DNA from: an uncultured bacterium
GTDB taxonomy: Bacteria > Verrucomicrobiota > Kiritimatiellia > CAIKKV01 > CAIJXV01
Assembly (NCBI GenBank): GCA_903824675.1
Contig: CAIJXV010000020.1
Location: forward strand, 1-64,000
Length of the DNA stretch: 64,000 bases
Direction: 5' to 3'
Shown here in pieces: positions 6,516-29,072 of the stretch. The translations under genes were made by a program, and so were the position numbers. The notes under the pieces were generated by a model that did not search any database, had not been told where the DNA came from, and saw nothing but the letters and a program-made list of their open reading frames with translations. Positions within the stretch are counted from its first letter, which is position 1; the number at the start of each line of letters is the position of its first letter.

Positions 6516-7790
6516 ATGCCTCGCTTCACCTACTCCGCCCGAACGGCTAAGGGCGAAAAAACGGAGGGTTCCCTCGAGGCATCCGACCGTCGAAACGCCT
6601 TGCTGCAGGTCGAACGGCTCGGGCTGACTCCCATTTCCCTCCGCGAGGGGGCGGGCACCGCACCGCCCTCTTCCGCCGCCAAACCCGGCGCCAAACCGGG
6701 AACCAAGTCTCCCCATAAATTTCAATTCAAACTCACGCTCCCGGTTCGCAAACGCCTTTCCCCCTCTGAAGTCCTGTACTTCTCCACCGAACTCAGCGAT
6801 CTGCTCGCTTCCGGCATGAACCTCGGCACCGCCCTCAGCACCCTGGCGAATCGTAAAACTGGCCGGGCGGGTGACGACATCATCCGTGAATTGCGCGACG
6901 ATATCGTCCGCGGCAAAAGTCTGTCCGATGCCATGGCGCGTTTCCCTGACTCCTTCTCCCCCCTCTACATCAGCATGATTCGCGTCGGCGAAGCCACCGG
7001 AGCCCTCAGTGAAGTCATGACCCGGCTGGTCTCCCATTACGAGCGCATCCAGGATGTCAAAGAAAAAGTCACCATGGCCCTGGTGTATCCCTCCATCGTG
7101 ATGACTTTGGGTATTGCTACGCTGGTCTTCTCCATGGTTTTCGTCATCCCTAAATTCTCCGCCATTTTTCTGGAATTAAAGGGGACCCTGCCCCTCCCCA
7201 CCAAAATTCTCATCGCCGCCAGCCAATGGCTGGTCCGGTATGGCTGGTTGCTCCTGATCGCCATCGTGGCCGGGTCCATTGCCGCCCATCGGGCCATCCA
7301 GAAACCCCGGGGCAAGATTTGGTGGCATCGGCTCCAGTTGCGCATCCCCATGATCCGCAGTATTGTATCCACCAGTAGTTATGCCGGTTTCGCACGGACC
7401 CTCGCCACCCTCCTGTCCAATGGCGTCCCGGTGCTCCAAGCCCTCGCCATCGTCGAAAAAACCGTGGGGAATGTCATCATTGCCCAGGAAATACATAACG
7501 CGCGCGAACGCGTCACCGACGGCACCTCCATCTCGGGTCCCCTCGCCGCGGGCAAGGTGTTCCCACCCCTGATGACCGATATGATGGCCATCGGCGAGCA
7601 AACCGGCGATATGGTCGGCGCGCTCAACCATGTCGCCCGACGCTATGAAAACGAACTCGATCGCAGCGTTAAAATCTTCACCACGGCATTGGAACCCATC
7701 CTGATTGTGTTGGTTGCCGTCATGGTCGGATTCGTTGCCGTCAGCATTCTAATGGCGGTCTTCAATCTGACCAATGGGTTGAATGTTTAA
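6516..7790 (+). CDS. gspF: inner-membrane platform protein GspF/PilC
   Basis: 424-residue polytopic protein that couples the E ATPase to pseudopilin polymerisation. Two T2SSF domains are visible: one at about 85-205 containing LLASGMNLGTAL and RVGEATGAL, and a repeat at about 285-410 containing LLSNGVPVLQAL and AIGEQTGDM. Membrane spans are near 190-213, 240-260 and 395-420. The N-terminal MPRFTYSART and LTPISL match the family start. A Pro/Ala/Lys-rich linker lies at about 47-70. It begins two bases after the gspE stop. Confidence 0.95.
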   Translation: MPRFTYSARTAKGEKTEGSLEASDRRNALLQVERLGLTPISLREGAGTAPPSSAAKPGAKPGTKSPHKFQFKLTLPVRKRLSPSEVLYFSTELSDLLASGMNLGTALSTLANRKTGRAGDDIIRELRDDIVRGKSLSDAMARFPDSFSPLYISMIRVGEATGALSEVMTRLVSHYERIQDVKEKVTMALVYPSIVMTLGIATLVFSMVFVIPKFSAIFLELKGTLPLPTKILIAASQWLVRYGWLLLIAIVAGSIAAHRAIQKPRGKIWWHRLQLRIPMIRSIVSTSSYAGFARTLATLLSNGVPVLQALAIVEKTVGNVIIAQEIHNARERVTDGTSISGPLAAGKVFPPLMTDMMAIGEQTGDMVGALNHVARRYENELDRSVKIFTTALEPILIVLVAVMVGFVAVSILMAVFNLTNGLNV

Positions 7791-10020: not shown

Positions 10021-11069
10021 AACTCGCCCCCTTCCATCTTCCCCGCCGACGCGCCGCCTCCGCCCTGGTCGTCGTCCTCTGGGTCATCGGCCTTCTCGCC
10101 ATTATCGTGACCTCGTTCGCCTTCGACATGCAACTCGAGACCATCATCACCTCTTATTGCCGCAAACGGCTCAAGGCCGATTACCTCGCCCAATCCGGTC
10201 TCGAAATGGTCAAGGTCGTCGTCCAAAAAAAGGACACCATCACCGGCGACAAGGAAACCGACGGCGACGATGCCGCGGACGCCTGGTATCCCCTGGCCCG
10301 AGCCCTCAAATACGGCGGATCGGTTTCGGGTTTCCGCCAACCCCTCGGAGATGGCGAAATCGTTATCGATATCATTCCCGAACCGGCCCGCCGGAATATC
10401 AATAAGCTCGACGAAAAGGATTGGGAAGGCGTGCTCGAAGTCGCCAACATTCCCGAAGATCTCTGGGATACCCTGATCGACTGTTTTTTCGATTGGACCG
10501 ATAACGAGACCCCCACTGCGGTCCGCCCCTTCGGTGCCGAAACCGACGATTATTACGCGCGCCTCCCCAATCCGTATAACGCGCACAACGGCCCCATCGA
10601 AACCATCGATGAACTTCTGCTCATCAAAGGGTTCACCAATACCGTCGTTTATGGCGGACGACCGCCCGACGCCGACCCCGAAGATCCTCCCTGGCTGGGA
10701 ATCGCCGACCTTCTGACCACCTACGGCGACGGGCTTGTCAATGTGAACGCCGCGTCCAAACGGGTGCTCAGAACCCTTCCGGAAGTCGATGACTTACTGG
10801 GCGATCTGATCACCGAGGTACGCGAGGAAGTTCTCACCACTGGCGGTAAAGATGAAGACCCCCATTTCAAAAGCCCCGACGATTTTTTTGCGCGAATCCC
10901 GGAAGCCAACCGGGCCATCCTGGCGCCGCGAATCTCGGTCTCCTCGGCGATTTACCGGATCAATTCCACCGGTTTCGTCCAAGGCGTCCGGCGCACCATT
11001 TCGTGTATCGTTGAATTCAACGGGGCCAAGATGAATATTCTTCGCTGGCAGGAACAGGAAGGCCAATAA
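10017..11069 (+). CDS. gspK: pseudopilin GspK-like protein
   Basis: 350 residues, the length class of GspK, which caps the pseudopilus tip. The N-terminus has a basic leader and then a hydrophobic helix (SALVVVLWVIGLLAI). It lacks the Glu at +5, as is normal for K. The cleavage point is probably after Ala14 or Ala15. The large domain contains helix-hairpin-like segments (NINKLDE, LVNVNAASKRVLRTLP) as in the T2SSK family. It is the last gene of the operon and ends 7 bases from a convergent gene. C, D, L and M genes do not follow. Confidence 0.85.
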   Translation: MKLAPFHLPRRRAASALVVVLWVIGLLAIIVTSFAFDMQLETIITSYCRKRLKADYLAQSGLEMVKVVVQKKDTITGDKETDGDDAADAWYPLARALKYGGSVSGFRQPLGDGEIVIDIIPEPARRNINKLDEKDWEGVLEVANIPEDLWDTLIDCFFDWTDNETPTAVRPFGAETDDYYARLPNPYNAHNGPIETIDELLLIKGFTNTVVYGGRPPDADPEDPPWLGIADLLTTYGDGLVNVNAASKRVLRTLPEVDDLLGDLITEVREEVLTTGGKDEDPHFKSPDDFFARIPEANRAILAPRISVSSAIYRINSTGFVQGVRRTISCIVEFNGAKMNILRWQEQEGQ

Positions 11070-19781: not shown

Positions 19782-20984
19782 TTATTTTTCAGCACGTGCA
19801 TCCGCCAATAGCCGGACATCTTTCCCCCGCCAGGCAAACCACAGGGTTCCCAATACCCCAAATCCAAAAGCCACCAGCAGATTCAAACGGGGCGACACCA
19901 TCCAAAGCCAGGCGCCCCCAAAAGCGGCAAAGGCGACCAGCACATCCCGAATCAGGTAATAGAGTCCGAACATGGCCGCCTTGCGATCCTCGGGTGCAAG
20001 ATCCATGATCAATGCTTTGCGGGTCGGCTCACCGAACTCCTTCAACCCGCGGAGCACAAAAACCGGAATCACCGCCCACAACGACTGGGCGTGCAGTAAC
20101 GCCAGGGGAAAGCAGGTGAAAAAGCCGAAGGTGATCAAAACAAAGGGCTTTTTCCCAAACCGATCGGCCATGTATGCCACCGGCAGATAGACCAGAACCG
20201 CCGTCATATGTTCAACCGCAGAAAGCCATCCAAACGTCAATTCCGAGACATGTCCGGCCATCGTTCGCGTCACCCATATCACGACAAAAGCATCGGGAAT
20301 CCGTTCACAAAACCGGATCAAAATGTCTGAAAACAACAGGTTTCGCAAGGCCGGGGGCATCTCGCGCCAAAGCCGTAACGGGTTGGATTCCGGCGAGCGC
20401 CCCGTCCGGGTTTCGTCCTCGATCATCACCTGCTGTAGCACGGCCGCCACCAACGCCAAACCCAAGGCCAGAATAAACGCCGCACGCACGCCGTTTGCAA
20501 CCCCCCACAACGCAATGCAGACCCCGCCCAACACCGGCCCCAGCATCTTCGGTATCCGTCGCACCAGGGCCAGGGCGGACACGCCCAGGGTTCTCCGGTT
20601 TTTCGGGACGATCCGGGCCACTAAATCCATCGTGGCGGGTAGCGAAATCGCCGACCAGGAAATGAAAAAAGCCGCCCCGAGCAGTACGGCCCACCAGGTG
20701 GGAATCAGGATCACGCACAAATAGCCAGCCATGGAGAGAATATTGAAAACCAACAATGCACGTTTGGTTCCCAGCCGGTCATTCAGGTACCCACCCGGAA
20801 AAGAATATAGCGCCGACAGCAGATCATCCATCCCGGCCAAAATTCCGATCGCCAGAATGGCTGTGGAAGAGGCCGCCAATTCCTGGAGATACAGCGGCAG
20901 GAATCGCTCGGCCAGGTGCTCGCCCATGCCGACGAGCACCACCATGCCCAGAAGCCCGGCCATACTGCGCTTGTTGCTGCTCAT
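19782..20984 (-). CDS. MFS-family transporter
   Basis: 400 residues with about 12 membrane spans. The loop after helix 2 is GGYLNDRLGTKRALL, the MFS signature-like motif, and the second half has VAYMADRFGKKPFVL in the equivalent place, supporting the two-repeat fold. The substrate is not evident. It precedes the transglutaminase-like gene in the same direction. The 249-base gap to the divergent GH20-like gene holds a TTCGCGT/TTCGTAG-rich segment (about 21065-21090) and nothing else recognised. Confidence 0.88.
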   Translation of the reverse strand: MSSNKRSMAGLLGMVVLVGMGEHLAERFLPLYLQELAASSTAILAIGILAGMDDLLSALYSFPGGYLNDRLGTKRALLVFNILSMAGYLCVILIPTWWAVLLGAAFFISWSAISLPATMDLVARIVPKNRRTLGVSALALVRRIPKMLGPVLGGVCIALWGVANGVRAAFILALGLALVAAVLQQVMIEDETRTGRSPESNPLRLWREMPPALRNLLFSDILIRFCERIPDAFVVIWVTRTMAGHVSELTFGWLSAVEHMTAVLVYLPVAYMADRFGKKPFVLITFGFFTCFPLALLHAQSLWAVIPVFVLRGLKEFGEPTRKALIMDLAPEDRKAAMFGLYYLIRDVLVAFAAFGGAWLWMVSPRLNLLVAFGFGVLGTLWFAWRGKDVRLLADARAEK

Positions 20985-21233: not shown

Positions 21234-22949
21234 ATGAAAACTTTGAGAATCCGAATTCTCTGCCCACACCTGCCCATCGTCCAATCGCTCAAAACCATCA
21301 CCCTGCGCGTACTTAGCGAACGAAACTGGCCCGCACCGGAATTCGTATCCGGCCCCGGAGCGACGGATCTGGAATGGGATCTGGTCAGCGGAATAGCGGC
21401 ACAGGGATTCCGCATCGAAAACGGCACGGCCGGGCAAATCCGGATCGTCGCATCCGACCCCCAGGGACTCGTTTACGGAATGGGCAAGTTCTTGCGCCGC
21501 ACTCGCATGGACAACGGTGAATTGAAACTCTGCCCCTGGCGGGGCACCTCCCTGCCCCGCTTGTCCATGCGGGGCATCTACTTCGCCACTCATTTCCATA
21601 ATTTCTATCAGGAAGCGCCTCTTGAGAAGGTCGAAGCCTATATTGAAGATCTCGCCCTTCAAGGCTTCAATGCCCTTAATGTTTGGTTTGATATGCACCA
21701 TTTCAAGGGCATTGACGACCCTGCGGCACAGGAGATGCTGACCCGCCTTAAAGCGTTGCTCCGGACCGCCCGGCGCGTCGGCATGTCGGCCGGAATCGGT
21801 TTTCTCGCCAATGAAGGCTATCGCACAACACCGGCCGCCTTGCGGGCCACCCCCACCGGTCGTGCCCATTATGGTGTGGAGGTCTGCGTGGCAACCCCCG
21901 AAGGCGAAGCCCTCGTCCTGAAGAATTTGCAGGGCGAGTTGGATGCATTCCGCGAGGTGGGCTTGGATTTCATCTGGCTCTGGCCCTACGATCAGGGCGG
22001 GTGTGCCTGCCCATCCTGCGGACCCTGGGGTCGCAAGGGCATGCTCAAGATTGGCGAAAAAGCAGCGCGATTGTTCCGGGATCGCTTCCCGGGTGGAAAG
22101 GTGATTTTCTCCACCTGGCTCTTCGATTACGGTAACGATCAAGGGGAATGGAACGGCCTCGCCAAAACCTTTTCCCCAAAACCGGACTGGGTGGACTATC
22201 TCTTGGCCGATTCCCACGACCGTTTCCCGAGGTTTCCCTTGGAACACGGAGTGCCGGGGGGGTTGCCCTTGTTGAATTTTCCGGAAATCAGCATGTACGG
22301 CATGCTCCCCTGGGGCGGCTTTGGCGCCAATCCGCTGATCCAGCGGTTTACCAACTTGTGGGGGGAAGTTGCGCACCTGGCAGATGGCGGGTTCCCGTAT
22401 TCCGAAGGCATTTTCGAAGATCTGAATAAAGCCGCTTATGCCCAGTTTTACTGGACCGGACAGAATGATTGCCGGGAAGCAATGGAGGAGTATTTCGAAT
22501 TCCAATTCGGCGCTGTCGATTTCGAAGCCTGCCGACGAATTCTCGATTTACTGGAAGCCAATCATGGGCCATGCTGGATGATCGGCGACATGGTCCGTCT
22601 GTGGGGATCGCCGACCGGCGGAATCCCGTTGCCCGGGTATCCCGAAGGCTCGATTCGTTTTCCTCGCCCGCAAGCCGATCAAGCGCGCGCAATCGAGGCC
22701 GTGGCATTATGTCGTCGGGTTGAATTGAGCCTGCCTGAGTGGGGACGAAAAAGCTGGCGCTGGCGAATCATCGCCTTGCGCGCCCTCCTCGACCTGGAAC
22801 TGCTCACCCATGGCGACAACCCCAACGAAGCCTGCCAGAAAGCGTTCTTGGAATTGCAGGACATTTATAGTGCAGAAAAAGGAGAGGCGGCCGTTTCTCC
22901 TCCGGTCAAAGGTGTTAACCGGATTGATGACTCCGCCAACTGCGAATGA
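21234..22949 (+). CDS. GH20-like / alpha-glucuronidase-like glycoside hydrolase
   Basis: 571 residues. The first 85 resemble the GH20/GH67 N-terminal domain (RIVASDPQGLVYGMGKFLR). A TIM barrel then starts at about 105 with LSMRGIYFATHFHNFYQEAP and contains FIWLWPYDQGGC at about 247, followed by CPSCGPWGRKG, a Cys pair that may bind metal. The canonical GH20 Asp-Glu pair is not obvious, so the exact family is uncertain. No signal peptide is seen, so it is probably intracellular. AAGGAG at 21220-21225 sets the ATG. Confidence 0.65.
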   Translation: MKTLRIRILCPHLPIVQSLKTITLRVLSERNWPAPEFVSGPGATDLEWDLVSGIAAQGFRIENGTAGQIRIVASDPQGLVYGMGKFLRRTRMDNGELKLCPWRGTSLPRLSMRGIYFATHFHNFYQEAPLEKVEAYIEDLALQGFNALNVWFDMHHFKGIDDPAAQEMLTRLKALLRTARRVGMSAGIGFLANEGYRTTPAALRATPTGRAHYGVEVCVATPEGEALVLKNLQGELDAFREVGLDFIWLWPYDQGGCACPSCGPWGRKGMLKIGEKAARLFRDRFPGGKVIFSTWLFDYGNDQGEWNGLAKTFSPKPDWVDYLLADSHDRFPRFPLEHGVPGGLPLLNFPEISMYGMLPWGGFGANPLIQRFTNLWGEVAHLADGGFPYSEGIFEDLNKAAYAQFYWTGQNDCREAMEEYFEFQFGAVDFEACRRILDLLEANHGPCWMIGDMVRLWGSPTGGIPLPGYPEGSIRFPRPQADQARAIEAVALCRRVELSLPEWGRKSWRWRIIALRALLDLELLTHGDNPNEACQKAFLELQDIYSAEKGEAAVSPPVKGVNRIDDSANCE

Positions 22950-22953
22950 TCGT

Positions 22954-23418
22954 TCAGTCGCTGTTACCATCCGGCACCTTTTTCGAATCCGGTTTCTGAT
23001 TGTTTACCACAAACCGTTTATCTGTTTTGCTGAGTTCAGTCCAGACGATGACGATGTCATTCGTCTTATTTCCAATTACAACCAAAGGGTTGTGGATAAT
23101 CATCTCCCCGGTCTCCTGCCGGACGAGACGGGTGCCGAAAAAGTCCAGATAGTAGTCCCCGCCGTTATGTCCGGTTATGCCTCTGACGCAGCCGTCCGCT
23201 GCGACGTCAAGTTCAAGTACTATGTTCGTGCCGGAGAACAACTCATCCGTTTTGTCTTTGCCATTATACACGGTGATTGAGATTAGCCCAGGGAATGGCG
23301 AGACATGAATCAGGACTTCACCCATTCCCATTGGAATGCGGAGATCCTTGGCCGGTTCGGCTCCCGTGCGTAACGTAAGCGCGAGGGTGGAAAGAATTAT
23401 TGCAGATAGTCTCTTCAT
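22954..23418 (-). CDS. small secreted hypothetical protein
   Basis: 154 residues: signal peptide of about 20 (MKRLSAIILSTLALTLRTGA), then a beta-rich domain (VLIHVSPFPGLISITVYN) and a polar tail. No family is recognised. Two starts are possible. An ATG at 23460 overlaps the antitoxin stop but adds 14 residues before the signal peptide, so 23418 is preferred. It converges on the GH20-like gene with a 4-base gap. It is the last gene of the small minus-strand accessory block. Confidence 0.55.
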   Translation of the reverse strand: MKRLSAIILSTLALTLRTGAEPAKDLRIPMGMGEVLIHVSPFPGLISITVYNGKDKTDELFSGTNIVLELDVAADGCVRGITGHNGGDYYLDFFGTRLVRQETGEMIIHNPLVVIGNKTNDIVIVWTELSKTDKRFVVNNQKPDSKKVPDGNSD

Positions 23419-23456
23419 CTTTTCTCGATACGAAGGCACTGCTCGCGGGCGGCGAA

Positions 23457-23729
23457 TCATCCTGCCTTTTCAATCAAACGGCCATTAATGTATTTATGCA
23501 GGATGCTGGAAATGAGTGTTTGGTAAGGTAACCCCTCATGGACGGCGGTTTTCTGAAAACGAATCAGGTCGCGTTCAGCCATCCGAATATTGACGCGTTT
23601 ATCCTTTCGGAGTGTTGCGCGGGCCGCATCGCGGTAACGAACCGCTTCGCGCGCAAAGTTCGGGATACGCTTCCATTCCCCCTTCTCAACGGAGTCCAGC
23701 AACCCCTTCTCGTCCTGTGTCAGCTTCAT
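23457..23729 (-). CDS. CopG/BrnA-type antitoxin
   Basis: 90 residues. The C-terminal ribbon-helix-helix is visible as KRVNIRMAERDLIRFQKTA followed by LPYQTLISSILHKYING, the pattern of CopG antitoxins of type II systems. The ATG overlaps the toxin stop (ATGA). Toxin first and antitoxin second is the usual order for brnT/brnA. Such antitoxins normally bind the toxin and repress their own promoter. Confidence 0.8.
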   Translation of the reverse strand: MKLTQDEKGLLDSVEKGEWKRIPNFAREAVRYRDAARATLRKDKRVNIRMAERDLIRFQKTAVHEGLPYQTLISSILHKYINGRLIEKAG

Positions 23730-24004
23730 TTTTCACCTCCCAAGTATATTTTCGTCATTTTACGACTGGGAATGATGGTTTTGAGAAAGATCCTCTCCTC
23801 ATCCTCCACGAATGGCACGAGGCAGGCGTACCCCTCCACATTCACAATAAATATCCTCTGCCCGGGGTACTGTTGCTTATTGGGGTGCTCGATTGTGTCG
23901 AGTAAACCTCCTTGCGACAGATGGAAGACAACATCCTCAAAAGCGACGCCTCGTTCCTGTTGTAGCCATTCATTCTTCTCATCATTCCAGTCGTATGGCT
24001 TCAT
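23726..24004 (-). CDS. BrnT-family toxin
   Basis: 92 residues of the BrnT type (RelE-like fold ribonuclease toxins). The N-terminus YDWNDEKNEWLQQERGVAF corresponds to the family's FEWDPxKxxxNxxKHGVSF. IFIVNVEGYACLVPFVEDEE and IFLKTIIPSRKMTKIY fit the central strands and the C-terminal basic helix. It lies just upstream of, and overlapping, the antitoxin gene. Local GC is lower than in the flanking housekeeping genes, which fits a mobile module. Confidence 0.78.
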   Translation of the reverse strand: MKPYDWNDEKNEWLQQERGVAFEDVVFHLSQGGLLDTIEHPNKQQYPGQRIFIVNVEGYACLVPFVEDEERIFLKTIIPSRKMTKIYLGGEK

Positions 24005-24116
24005 GATGCAAATGTATCACTATGTGTGCATTTTGGCAACAGGCGTCTTTGATTCATTTCCCTGGAAGAACGTTCAGGGTGTGGGTTGAGCTGGCCGCGC
24101 AGCGGACGGCGAATAC

Positions 24117-24187
24117 GCCCTAACTCGCTCCTCGTCAATTCCTATCCTGACTAACAACCTGTCCCTGTTCCCTTCTGTTGTTAGGCG
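24117..24187. repeat. attC-like imperfect palindrome A
   Basis: GCCCTAAC (24117-24124) and GTTAGGC (24180-24186) bound a 71-base non-coding stretch directly 3' of the small membrane protein gene. An inner perfect pair, CTAACAAC (24151-24158) and GTTGTTAG (24177-24184), shares the right arm. GCCTAAC and GTTAGGC are the classical outer boxes of integron recombination sites. The middle pairing is weak, so this is a candidate only. Confidence 0.35.
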
Positions 24188-24463
24188 CTATTGTAATTGT
24201 CTGTATGCTGTTTTGAAAAGCTTAACGCTTCGTGCGCCAAGCAGAATACCGAACAGGAGGGAAACGGACTCCGTGAGCCAGAATTCCATTGGATTATCTT
24301 GTCTCTCAACACACCCGGGCTGGTGCCGTGAGAAGCCCATCGTTTTATCTGTCTTCAGCCCAATGAAGAATACGCAAAACAACACGATAGCAAGCAGGGA
24401 TAGGGCAATCCCGGCGGCAATAGTCCGTCTCGGTCGGAGTGGCGACGATGTATCGGTATTCAT
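24188..24463 (-). CDS. small membrane protein
   Basis: 91 residues with one clear membrane span at about 16-36 (AAGIALSLLAIVLFCVFFIGL) and a second hydrophobic segment near 64-80 (VSLLFGILLGA). No family is recognised. The ATG at 24463 has an AGGA about 11 bases upstream; a GTG six codons earlier is possible. It is flanked on its 3' side by the attC-like palindrome and is one of several single-gene minus-strand units here. Confidence 0.5.
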   Translation of the reverse strand: MNTDTSSPLRPRRTIAAGIALSLLAIVLFCVFFIGLKTDKTMGFSRHQPGCVERQDNPMEFWLTESVSLLFGILLGARSVKLFKTAYRQLQ

Positions 24464-24567
24464 GCTGTTACGATTCCTCACGTTTGAAAGGAGCGTCGGG
24501 CGTAGCCCGTAAGCTCACTTGACTGGTTGGGATTATTTGCATATTTAATTTGGGATTGAGAATGCTG

Positions 24568-25122
24568 TCAAATTTGTCCTCCGCATGCAATGCGCAAGGC
24601 TCCGGTGGCGTTATGCACCGTAGTGAGAGGTGTAAAGGTCGCAGTGATGGTGTAAGTGGCGGCCGAAAGAGTCTCGATGTATAAACTGTCTGCCGTCAAA
24701 TAGCAGCCGTTCGTGCCCTGTGGTCGCGAGTTGATCCGTTCCGACCACCTCATTGAATCAGTACGCATTGTCACATCTATCAACGTCCTACCCACTTCGT
24801 CTGACGCGACAATGTGCAATGTACCGACTGGCGACTCAAATGGTGCGCCGATGACGTGTAAGTAAATCAGGCATTTTCGTTCTATGTCGGGTACGTGGGT
24901 TAGTGTGTACGTAGCAGAGAATGGCTGTTCTAGCGTGAACGTCGGGAATTGGATTTCATAGCCCTTGATTTTGGCCCAGAGAAATCTCAGGGATGTGTCG
25001 ACCATTATTCCATCGCCGGTATATGCGGCGATTTCTTTGGTCATGTATGCCCTTGGATGAGGAGACGAACATCCTGAAAGAGGTAGGCAGAGGGCAAGCA
25101 ACAGTCCGATAATTGGTTTCAT
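24568..25122 (-). CDS. lipoprotein of unknown function
   Basis: 184 residues. The signal peptide ends in the lipobox LSGC with Cys18 as the acylated residue, so the protein should be membrane-anchored on the exterior face. The rest is beta-rich with many Thr and Tyr; no domain is recognised. Base composition is lower in GC than the housekeeping genes. Downstream (24492-24515) a nested hairpin GAGC-GGGC-GCCC-GCTC is visible. Confidence 0.6.
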   Translation of the reverse strand: MKPIIGLLLALCLPLSGCSSPHPRAYMTKEIAAYTGDGIMVDTSLRFLWAKIKGYEIQFPTFTLEQPFSATYTLTHVPDIERKCLIYLHVIGAPFESPVGTLHIVASDEVGRTLIDVTMRTDSMRWSERINSRPQGTNGCYLTADSLYIETLSAATYTITATFTPLTTVHNATGALRIACGGQI

Positions 25123-25132
25123 ATAGTATTTA

Positions 25133-25212
25133 TCCCAACGCTCGCCTTGTACATCCGAGTGCCCGCAGCGGGCACGAGGTAGTGCACCAAGGCATTGTTT
25201 GCAGGGTTGTTG
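25133..25212. repeat. attC-like imperfect palindrome B
   Basis: TCCCAAC (25133-25139) and GTTGTTG (25206-25212) bound the element. Inside, GCCTTGTAC (25144-25152) pairs imperfectly with GTGCACCAAGGC (25182-25193), leaving unpaired bases on one side. At the centre is GTGCCCGCAGCGGGCAC (25159-25175). It fills most of the gap between the sialidase-like and lipoprotein genes. Outer, inner and central pairings in this order recall an attC site, but the right outer box is atypical. Confidence 0.35.
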
Positions 25213-25244
25213 TTTTGTTCAAGTCGTTACGTTGCCCCCTCGGT

Positions 25245-26216
25245 CTATTTTTCGAGGCGCCCCTCCCAGAAGACGATGGATTCGCGTTTCCAGGTGTAGG
25301 TTCCTGCGAATCCTTCGGGAGTGGCTATGACCGCGGGATAGGAATATTCGCCCGGGGCGATCTCAAGCTCGTAAGCATCCTGCCAGTTCTGTCCGCCGTC
25401 AAAGGATGCGGCGAGATTCAAAGGCGTTCTTGATCCCCAGTTCTTCGGCACCTTGTTGAAAGCCAGCAGGATGGTGCCATCGGGTGCTTTGTCGAGGTCA
25501 ATGCCGCTATTGTTATTGGGAAGGGGGGTGGGTCTCAGTTCGCACCAGGTGTTTCCGTAGTCGCTTGAGTCGCTGCGGCAGATGAATCCGCTTGAACTTC
25601 GGGTAAGCATGTGGACTTTCCCTGGCGATGATTCCCAAATAGTCGGCTGGATGGCCCCCTGACCGGTGATCAGTGTTCTATCCATAGTCACTTCAGGACT
25701 GGCCACCCAAGTGAGACCGCCGTCCTGGCTGCGGTCGGTCAGCACGCGCCACTTGTTACCGTTCTCAAGGGAATTTGGAGCGAGCCATGATCCGTCGGAC
25801 AGGATGATGGGCTTGTTCTTTACGGGGCCACGTCCGCCCATGTCACCTGGTACAAGTTCGCTTGGCCTACTCCATGAACAACCACCGTCAAGGGATTGGG
25901 TAACCCAGGTCCTCCAATGATCGCACCTTTCGCCTTCCTTGAAGAAGAGCAGGACTGTTCCGTTTTTCGGCTGGAAAAGAACGGGGTTCCAGTGGGAAGA
26001 GTTGCAGGCCCTTGCCCACTGTGCGGGTCGGCTCCAGATCCCCTCCTGATTACGGACTGAACCATAGATGGCCACATCAACCGCCCCCTCTTTCGTGCCG
26101 GCGAACCATGCGGCCAGATAGCGTCCATCCTGCAGCCGGAGAAGAGTCGAGGCGTGGGACTGTCCAACAAGGCCCGGATCGAAGATCCGTTTCTGACTTT
26201 TCAGCGTGAACTTCAT
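25245..26216 (-). CDS. sialidase-like (BNR/Asp-box) protein
   Basis: 323 residues of the six-bladed propeller type (BNR_2 family). Asp boxes S-x-D-x-G-x-x-W are visible: SLDGGCSW, SQDGGLTW, SDYGNTW and SFDGGQNW. The start has QSHASTLLRLQDGRYLAAWFAG, typical of exo-sialidase-like proteins that often act on sialic acids or other sugars. No signal peptide is present, so location is uncertain. The ATG at 26216 is chosen because MKFTLK begins the conserved part; a start 13 codons upstream is possible. Activity is not shown by sequence alone. Confidence 0.75.
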   Translation of the reverse strand: MKFTLKSQKRIFDPGLVGQSHASTLLRLQDGRYLAAWFAGTKEGAVDVAIYGSVRNQEGIWSRPAQWARACNSSHWNPVLFQPKNGTVLLFFKEGERCDHWRTWVTQSLDGGCSWSRPSELVPGDMGGRGPVKNKPIILSDGSWLAPNSLENGNKWRVLTDRSQDGGLTWVASPEVTMDRTLITGQGAIQPTIWESSPGKVHMLTRSSSGFICRSDSSDYGNTWCELRPTPLPNNNSGIDLDKAPDGTILLAFNKVPKNWGSRTPLNLAASFDGGQNWQDAYELEIAPGEYSYPAVIATPEGFAGTYTWKRESIVFWEGRLEK

Positions 26217-26257
26217 AAGGGTAAATGATCTTGACCGCACCTTCTCCAATTGCAAAC

Positions 26258-26324
26258 GTCAACGCTGAGCATTTTCTGAAGGCCATCCGCGGCCTTCGGA
26301 AATATGCTCCGGCGTTTTGTTGGC
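26258..26324. repeat. attC-like imperfect palindrome C
   Basis: GTCAAC (26258-26263) and GTTGGC (26319-26324) bound a long stem. AACGCTGAGCA and GAAGGCC on the left pair with GGCCTTC and TGCTCCGGCGTT on the right, with single-base bulges (one extra base beside TGCTC) around a loop ATCCGC. The bulged, nearly symmetric stem with short outer boxes is the strongest attC lookalike of the block. It sits in the gap 3' of the next minus-strand gene. Confidence 0.4.
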
Positions 26325-26375
26325 ATTATTTGTCTTCAACGAGCACTTGTCCAGTCCCCTCCTCTGATAAACGTT

Positions 26376-26999
26376 TCAGACGAGGACTTCCCATATCTCG
26401 CCGCCACCGTTGACAACGGTAACGAGGTAGTCCTTGATCTGCTTGCCTGTTAGGACTCCCTCGTGGACGACGTGATACTTGGGCGAACCGCTCTGGCTCG
26501 ACATGCCCTCGTTTGTTGGACGCAACGCCGCTGCTGTATTGTCGGCAATGCGATTCAGAACTGAATCAGCATGCGCATGGTCCCGATAGAACGTGTGTAG
26601 TCGCGCCTTCGAAAAGGTATGATCGTCCACGAGGTCGCCAGAGATGCACTTGCCGTACTGCTGTTTCACTTGACCCCATGCCAAAGACATCGTTCCCTCG
26701 TGGGCAGGCGAGCCTGCCTGTCTGGCCGCGTCCTTTATCCACGCGGGGACTTGATATGGAACTTTCTGTTTCTGTGAGTTGGGGGAAGATGTCTTTGCAT
26801 CTCCTGACTCCGGAAAGATATGGGCACCAAGCGCTGCAATCCCCGAGCCTACGAAGAACACAAAAACTACTCCGACGACTCGTTGTCCGACGGTCGCCTG
26901 CGCCTCTTTGTTGCAGAACGCCGCGACTACGGTGAGGACTACGATCCCTACACCTAGCGCACCCAGGATCCAACCGAGGATCTTTCGTAGTAATTGCAT
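26376..26999 (-). CDS. hypothetical protein with two N-terminal membrane spans
   Basis: 207 residues: hydrophobic segments at about 5-27 (ILGWILGALGVGIVVLTVV) and 38-58 (VVGVVFVFFVGSGIAALGA), then a soluble region with no recognised domain (LHTFYRDHAHADSVLNRIA). The ATG at 26999 is set by GGGAG about 8 bases upstream; the 17 codons before it read poorly. It is the first gene of the minus-strand accessory block and has lower GC than its neighbours. Confidence 0.5.
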   Translation of the reverse strand: MQLLRKILGWILGALGVGIVVLTVVAAFCNKEAQATVGQRVVGVVFVFFVGSGIAALGAHIFPESGDAKTSSPNSQKQKVPYQVPAWIKDAARQAGSPAHEGTMSLAWGQVKQQYGKCISGDLVDDHTFSKARLHTFYRDHAHADSVLNRIADNTAAALRPTNEGMSSQSGSPKYHVVHEGVLTGKQIKDYLVTVVNGGGEIWEVLV

Positions 27000-27446
27000 C
27001 TGTATACTCCCTATGCGTACTGATTCGGCCCAGGCACCTTTCTGTGCCAACTAGTATTATGCGTCAAAAATATCGAGAGGCATATTCGGGGTTAAAAGTG
27101 ATAGGCCTCAAAGGCGTTGTTGCACATCAACAGGTTGCGACGCGAACCTGACGCATATGAATTTCGATAGGCCTCAACAATAGGCGTCATAATACCTGAC
27201 TTTGGGCAAAACACCCGTCCTGTCGTATGATCGAAGGTAGCATGGGGGAGAATGGGGAGCAAGCGGTTTTGAGGGAGGGAGATGGCTAATGCCCTTACGG
27301 GCACACTACAAAAGGTTTTTTGTAAAATCCAGATGTTCGTAGTGAGGCCGTCAGGCGTTTCTTCGCCCTATTAGAATTACGGAGGTGCTCCGAGATCTCT
27401 GCGATCTCCTTGCCTTTGCGTGCTGGTTTTGGGAATATCGCACGCC
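27000..27446. other. gap with short direct and inverted repeats
   Basis: No supported gene. The 12-mer GATAGGCCTCAA occurs at 27100-27111 and 27166-27177. Between them is a hairpin, CAGGTT (27131-27136) with AACCTG (27145-27150), and GTTGTTG (27116-27122) faces CAACAA (27175-27180). A 70-codon minus-strand frame through this palindrome is explained by the repeats. Composition changes here from the lower-GC block to the GC-rich oxidase gene. Confidence 0.5.
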
Positions 27447-29072
27447 ATGACAACACCTGTAATCCCCGTTGAACCGGTCCTGTCGCCCGAAGAATATGCG
27501 GCGCTGGACCTTATCACCGCCCAACCCGGCCTGACCCTTTCCGATCTGTCCCGTTTCCTGGCCACCCGCTTCAACCTCGATCTCACGCTCGACCCGGATA
27601 TCGTCGGGGGATTCGCCGCTGATAGTTCCAACCTGCCGGGCCGCGCCCAGGCGCTCTGCCGCCCCGCCACCGAACGCGATTGCGCCGTGATCCTCCACGC
27701 CTGCCATAAGGCCGGAATTCCCCACACCCTCTCCGCCGGTAAATCGAATCTGACCGGAAGCGCCACGCCGGATGACGGTGTCATCATCTCCACCGTCAAT
27801 CTTCAAACCCCCACCCCGAGCATCGATGCCGTTACCCGGACGACCGTCGCTCCCGTCGGCCTGATCCTCGAGGATTTCCGACGACAGGTGTTGGAACTCA
27901 GCGGCGGGTCCCTGATTTATCCGGTCGATCCGACCAGCCGGGGAGATGCCTCCATCGGCGGCACATTGGCCTGTAACGCCTCGGGCTTCACTCCCGGCGA
28001 AGCCGGTGCCACTCGCCCCTGGGTCGCCGCCATCGATTTCCTCCTTCCCGATGGCTGGCGGATCCGGGCCACCCGCGGCCAATACGTCTCGGCGGATGGT
28101 TTCTTTCACCTCCACTATGGCGATGGACGGACCGTGGATTTGCCCGTTCCGAATTATCCGCGACCGGCCATCAAGAATGCGGGCGGTCCATTTTCGGCGT
28201 CCAATGGAATCATGGATTTCGTGGACCTGGTAATCGGCAGCGAGGGTCTGTTCGGCCTCGTCACCTCCTGCCGGCTCTCGCTTCAGCCACGTCCCCCCGC
28301 GGTTCTGGATCTGTTTTTTCCGCTACCCGGCGAGCCGGAGGCGTTGAAGTTTTTCCATTTTCTACATACTCAAATGGCGGGGCGGCTTGATAGCCTTTCG
28401 GCATTCGAATATTTCGGGGTCAACTGCCGGAAATACATGGACCACGAAAATGCCCTCTTCCAGGGGAATAATCAGGTCGGCATCAATCTGCAAGTGCCGT
28501 TGATGAACGCCGATGCGCTCGACTCAGCGGCCGAAGAGTGGCTGGAACGAATCCTATCCGCCGATTGCGGTGTCGATCCGGACGCCATTCTCCTGCTGGA
28601 CAACGATCGGGTTCGCAAACTCTTCATGGAGGCCCGCCACTCCCTGCCGGCCAAATCCTTGGAAGTGGTTCAACATCGCGGAACTTTCACGATTATGACC
28701 GATGCCGTGGTGCCGCCCAACCGGTTCGACGAATTCCTCGCCTTCACTCACAACCTGATTCGTTCCGCTGGAATTGATTACCTTTCGTTCGGACATTTGG
28801 GAGATTGCCATCTGCATTTCACGCTCCTGCCGGAAAAAAGCCAACAGGATCGGGGTCGGGAAATATATGACCAAATCGTGGCCCGTTCAGCCGACTTGGG
28901 CGGCGTCTATTCCGGCGAACATGGCACCGGCAAACGCAAACGCCAGGATTTCCTGCGCTGTTACGGACCGGAGGGCGTCGCTTCCGTCCAGCGGTGCAAG
29001 GCCGCGCTCGATCCGAAGTGTCTGCTCAACCGCGGCAATGTCGTCGAGTGCATGTCGGATGTTCACCACTGA
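27447..29072 (+). CDS. FAD-linked oxidase, GlcD / D-lactate dehydrogenase type
   Basis: 541 residues. The FAD-binding PCMH-type domain spans about 50-260 (CRPATERDCAVILHACHKAG, then GGTLACNASGFTPGEAG). A C-terminal cap domain extends to the end with FGHLGDCHLHF and SGEHGTGKRKR, the family's metal/substrate motifs. It oxidises a 2-hydroxyacid such as D-lactate or glycolate, passing electrons to the membrane chain. The usual start context is weak; ATG 27447 is preferred over one nine codons upstream. The final residues DVHH come from a TTCACCACTGATGCACAGGG repeat-like sequence, so the true C-terminus may have been altered. Confidence 0.85.
   Translation: MTTPVIPVEPVLSPEEYAALDLITAQPGLTLSDLSRFLATRFNLDLTLDPDIVGGFAADSSNLPGRAQALCRPATERDCAVILHACHKAGIPHTLSAGKSNLTGSATPDDGVIISTVNLQTPTPSIDAVTRTTVAPVGLILEDFRRQVLELSGGSLIYPVDPTSRGDASIGGTLACNASGFTPGEAGATRPWVAAIDFLLPDGWRIRATRGQYVSADGFFHLHYGDGRTVDLPVPNYPRPAIKNAGGPFSASNGIMDFVDLVIGSEGLFGLVTSCRLSLQPRPPAVLDLFFPLPGEPEALKFFHFLHTQMAGRLDSLSAFEYFGVNCRKYMDHENALFQGNNQVGINLQVPLMNADALDSAAEEWLERILSADCGVDPDAILLLDNDRVRKLFMEARHSLPAKSLEVVQHRGTFTIMTDAVVPPNRFDEFLAFTHNLIRSAGIDYLSFGHLGDCHLHFTLLPEKSQQDRGREIYDQIVARSADLGGVYSGEHGTGKRKRQDFLRCYGPEGVASVQRCKAALDPKCLLNRGNVVECMSDVHH

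Follow-up and report, generated by a model that had tools for sequence, protein, structure and literature searches.

The window, by which we mean the whole 64-kb stretch of contig C20 analysed in this work, contains a block of seven minus-strand open reading frames (22954-27050, from the ORF list), which confirms the first-pass annotation as to the common orientation of the genes. The features of the block, from its left border onwards, are the following:

27045-27051, minus strand: left border of the array, with the sequence GTTGGCA; the R'' box of the first attC site is its exact reverse complement
26257-27050, minus strand: cassette A (794 bp), a predicted membrane protein gene and its attC site, delimited by the R''/start rule
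26251-26325, minus strand: attC site of cassette A
25139-26256, minus strand: cassette B (1118 bp), a sialidase-like gene of the BNR_2 family (25245-26255; PF13088, E 9.2e-71) and its attC site
25133-25203, minus strand: attC site of cassette B
24481-25138, minus strand: cassette C (658 bp), a lipoprotein gene (24568-25122) and a probable decayed attC site
24475-24532, minus strand: the probable decayed attC site of cassette C, with R' GTGAGGA instead of GTTRRRY
24188-24481, minus strand: small membrane protein gene (open reading frame)
24114-24173, no strand given: copy of a dispersed repeat of about 60 bp
23457-24004, minus strand: BrnT-like toxin gene (23726-24004) and BrnA/CopG-like antitoxin gene (23457-23729), from profile matches
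22954-23460, minus strand: secreted-protein gene (open reading frame), of no family

The first-pass annotation had read positions 22950-26380 as a possible block of integron cassettes that carries attC sites but lacks an integrase. This interpretation is supported by two covariance models blind to the window, by the R''/start rule at the cassette borders and by a homologue of a cassette gene in G192. The extent had to be revised, because the array begins further out, at 27050, and is proven only for 27050-24481. The lower GC content claimed for the block is partly true: cassette A has 54.5%, cassette B 56.3%, cassette C 49.1% and the distal part 50.2%, compared with 55.8% and 58.0% in the flanks.

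The first covariance model of attC (R1) was built from 25 sites of canonical spacing, taken from relatives carrying an integron integrase, from class 1 integrons (some sites of the aadA, dfrA, ereA group) and from one cyanobacterial integron on plasmids, and it was never exposed to the window sequence. The sites were cut to 50-mers and aligned gap-free without the variable centre; a MAFFT alignment of full-length sites misplaced that centre and was dropped in favour of these equal-length pieces. The second model (R2) was built from 52 matches, all outside the window. Across the 25 training sites, the attC structure leaves 86.7% of cells paired, compared with 58.8% after shuffling and at most 37% when slid, which is a consistency check only because the structure was derived from those same sites. 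With default filters, R1 gave exactly two matches at E ≤ 10 in the window, namely the sites of cassettes A and B. The site of cassette A scored 40.6 bits with R1 (E 2.7e-9) and 43.2 bits with R2, and that of cassette B 27.6 bits with R1 (E 1.4e-5) and 35.5 bits with R2 (E 1.5e-7), where all E-values are rough because the calibration was shortened. The former is the second-best R1 match in the 4.24-Mb genome. The next-best R2 match in the window reached 11.9 bits at default filters, and the best scores in control stretches of contig C20 were 14.1 bits with R1 and 10.9 bits with R2. When the filters were switched off, the two sites were still first and second with R1, at lower scores (22.3 and 17.4 bits). 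Both are on the minus strand directly 3' of a minus-strand gene. The fold expected of attC, with L stems and extrahelical bases, was found, the spacers being 9 nt long and the extrahelical bases G/A, as in relatives. The DNA fold of the site of cassette A has -19.7 kcal/mol (z -4.3), and its R' box is to be read as GTTTGCA (26257-26251) rather than as the inner GTTGACG. A geometric scanner placed the same site at the top of the window; this is not counted as proof, because 3 of 204 shuffles reached its score. A plain box-plus-fold scan for attC was dropped as too unspecific, and the Rfam search returned tRNA only. By comparing these results with the three gaps in which the first-pass annotation had seen attC sites, and for which it had suggested a covariance-model search, two turned out to be real, with corrected ends (26251-26325 and 25133-25203), and the third (24117-24187) gave no R1 or R2 match at default filters.

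Excision of a cassette closes its attC site with the cassette's own first bases. For this reason, R'' is expected to be the reverse complement of a G followed by the first bases of the cassette. The three consecutive cassettes A, B and C agree with this rule in 7 of 7 positions each: R'' TGCCAAC and start GTTGGCA (27051-27045) in cassette A, TGCAAAC and GTTTGCA in cassette B, and TCCCAAC and GTTGGGA in cassette C. The probability of a 7/7 match by chance, for a random AAC/GTT box pair within the window, is 0.005. Most cassettes in other arrays of the same genome and of relatives obey the rule as well (6-7 of 7). It also explains the apparently poor R'' box of the site of cassette B (TGCAAAC at 25203-25197). 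At the left border the crossover lies after G27051, so cassette A begins with TTGGCA at 27050, and GTTGGCA occurs only once on the minus strand within 22401-27600. In the gap behind the lipoprotein gene, which had been described as lacking a good site, the rule points to a decayed attC with a mutated R'. This site has canonical 9-nt spacers on both sides and a good central hairpin (GAGC-TTA-CGGGC / GCCCG-AC-GCTC), and its outer pairing is weak. With the filters off it scored 12.2 bits with R1 (rank four in the window) and 9.3 bits with R2 (third in the block), so its assignment is based on the border rule and the geometry and not on the models. We consider it quite probable that 24475-24532 is the third attC site.

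The gene of cassette A corresponds to the open reading frame 26376-27050, with an ATG at 26999. A homologue of the C-terminal half of its protein sits in an attC array on contig C245 of G192, and an attC site follows it on that strand, about 370 bp downstream. The genes of cassettes A and C are rare, each with matches in 2 of 193 genomes of the class, the window's own genome counted. The sialidase-like gene of cassette B has homologues in 13 other genomes of the class, which are not established as cassettes there, and a comparison of its protein with solved structures gave no sequence match.

Beyond cassette C, the segment 24117-24187 was ruled out as an attC site, because most of it is a copy of the dispersed repeat, with good outer boxes but no L stems; it reached 6.7 bits with the filters off. 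About ten copies or part-copies of this repeat were found in the genome, the longer ones 78-93% identical. The repeat contains GTTAGGGCGTA and CAGGGACAGGTT and mimics attC at 24114-24173; elsewhere in the genome it was observed on contigs C73, C1, C13, C89, C100, C106, C111 and C101. A candidate R'' box outside the repeat, GCCTAAC (24186-24180), fits the start GTGAGGA in only 5 of 7 positions and could be a remnant of a fourth attC, and the small membrane protein gene is possibly the remnant of a fourth cassette. The toxin gene matched BrnT_toxin with E 3e-5, under the Pfam cut-off, and the BrnA/CopG match of the antitoxin gene is weak. On contig C34, two attC sites enclose a homologous pair (50% and 56% identity), which makes a cassette origin likely for the pair in the window, and thus 23457-24004 is probably a former cassette. 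The pair on C34 (L129:6669-7212) was located by tblastn and its flanking attC sites, as an instance of BrnT/BrnA-like pairs recurring in the cassette arrays of this genome; a further pair was spotted by eye on C65 (L021:about 10140-10620). The secreted-protein gene had no Pfam or NCBIfam match, and the covariance-model search of the block gave no attC at its 3' end. We lean towards regarding the distal genes (membrane protein, toxin-antitoxin, secreted protein) as former cassettes of the same array.

The array and its two attC sites at 26251-26325 and 25133-25203 are near certain. We are highly confident that the minus strand at 27050-24481 is an attC-terminated integron array of three cassettes with no integrase or recognisable attI alongside, that is, a CALIN. 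The definition of a CALIN requires two or more attC sites with no IntI nearby, two being the default threshold (PMC12444791). In the window, two sites about 1.1 kb apart lie on the minus strand with genes between them and no adjoining IntI, so the locus is a further example of an already known class of elements. It differs from a typical CALIN in its minimum size, as only two sites exceed the threshold of the models and the decayed third one is below it, and in its worn-out distal end; the attC sites were called here with models built in this analysis and not with IntegronFinder's own. Gene cassettes are mobile units that integrons gather and rearrange. The array is short and partly worn-out. 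A complete integron would have intI and attI adjoining the array, and there is no intI on contig C20. The locus shares the attC architecture (9-nt spacers, extrahelical bases) and the R''/start rule with sedentary chromosomal integrons of the same genome and order (for example the C45 integrase, and the arrays in G007, G008 and G042); where these have an IntI gene next to their array they are complete integrons, unlike the locus in the window. It has the R''-L''...L'-R' layout in common with class 1 cassettes (attC of aadA, dfrA, ereA), but differs from them in having no resistance gene, no plasmid or transposon context and chromosomal-type attC. Integrons are already on record in Verrucomicrobiota and Planctomycetota (PMC8618304). 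The locus shows that raw sequence from a little-studied lineage is enough to recognise integrase-less cassette arrays, and that the R''/start rule reveals borders and decayed attC sites missed by a covariance model alone; apart from this, the single locus is ordinary.

The absence of an integrase, as first annotated, holds for the window and for the whole contig C20, but an IntI gene is present on contig C45 of the same genome. In a search of the whole genome, contig C20 had no TIGR02249 or PF00589 match, and tblastn of IntI against parts of C20 gave chance matches only and no intI remnant. The IntI gene on C45 scored 378.8 bits against the NCBIfam cut-off of 265; the matched stretch has no stop, the contig ends about 560 bp past the match, and the gene is apparently complete. 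Other attC arrays of the genome lie on contigs C100, C105, C34 and C101. Short C-terminal IntI pieces were observed at C65:23538-23672, C72:13452-13610, C83:37798-37884 and C44:19677-19775, with attC sites near those on C44, C65 and C83, and they look like decayed integrons. On C44, a cassette with a clear attC (19900-20689, equal to L022:9901-10690; R' GTTATGC) ends exactly at the position of the coding start of the C45 intI. Beyond it, 230 bp match the upstream region of the C45 intI with 98.7% identity, and no more than the C-terminal intI piece is left, so most of an integrase gene seems to have been replaced by a cassette. Between the array and the FAD-oxidase gene, the window carries GATAGGCCTCAA twice around a short hairpin (AGGTTGCGACGCGAACCT) at 27060-27190, in a region unlike the one upstream of the C45 intI.

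According to established integron knowledge, the bottom strand of attC would fold, and IntI would cut next to the G of GTTRRRY. An IntI such as that of C45 might then excise cassettes A and B or move them in trans, and cassette C would be mobile only if its damaged R' is tolerated. The array may have become separated from an integrase by off-target insertion in trans, by loss of intI/attI or by rearrangement. CALINs are widespread, and off-target insertion, intI loss and rearrangement have been proposed as their three origins (PMC8618304). We give about an even chance to loss or rearrangement, in which the locus formerly held a complete integron, or the array moved away from one, and intI/attI were lost while the distal cassettes decayed. 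The decay of the distal end (the mutated R' of the third attC, the dispersed repeat and the genes without attC) and the truncated intI genes adjoining attC sites on other contigs of the same genome argue for this origin, and the lack of any intI remnant near the array argues against it. That same lack on C20, whereas C44, C65, C72 and C83 retain C-terminal intI pieces, is consistent with serial delivery of the cassettes to an attG-like secondary site by an IntI encoded elsewhere, an origin which we regard as plausible, if short of an even chance. It is favoured by the IntI above cut-off on C45, by the sequence left of 27051, where 27040-27420 showed no similarity to the upstream region of the C45 intI, and by its place among the three proposed routes (PMC8618304). 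On the other hand, this genome's true attI was not found, the attG signature is weak, and the distal border as it now stands reads G^TGAGGA, which is not the GWT core of attG. A reading as an ordinary gene cluster, in which the palindromes between the genes are terminators or repeats, would suit the dispersed repeat at the third annotated site and the fold of the site of cassette B, which taken singly is not unusual (z -1.2), but it is contradicted by the scores and specificity of the covariance models, by the exact R''/start pairing in three cassettes and by the extrahelical-base pattern common to the sites in the window and to those of relatives, and is very improbable.

As for integron arrays in the order, all 17 genomes searched with R1 show attC matches, and 7 of the 17 (G001, G002, G005, G009, G013, G014 and G015) have no IntI match at E ≤ 1e-50. 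Integrase-less arrays thus seem common in the order, although incomplete assemblies may account for some, and these counts make the lineage a good place to study the origins of CALINs. It is a tentative and rather unlikely extension that such arrays are routinely scattered through the chromosomes of bacteria of this order and fed in trans by one integrase, in which case the locus would be a natural off-target array whose borders are known to single-base resolution, and integrase genes themselves would appear to be broken by cassette insertion, as on C44. In relatives at the order level, the two genes that flank the array do not lie next to each other. Judged by the flanking FAD-oxidase protein, the nearest named records are two MAGs, one from an uncultured Lentisphaerae and one from Planctomycetota (62-63% identity), which hints at the taxonomy but does not amount to a placement. 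The flanking gene of 571 aa had no match in the examined stretches of these records. The Lentisphaerae record has an attC pair of its own (L106:6579-6649 and 7148-7218), located about 3 kb from the FAD-oxidase gene, in which each site marks the 3' end of a small gene.
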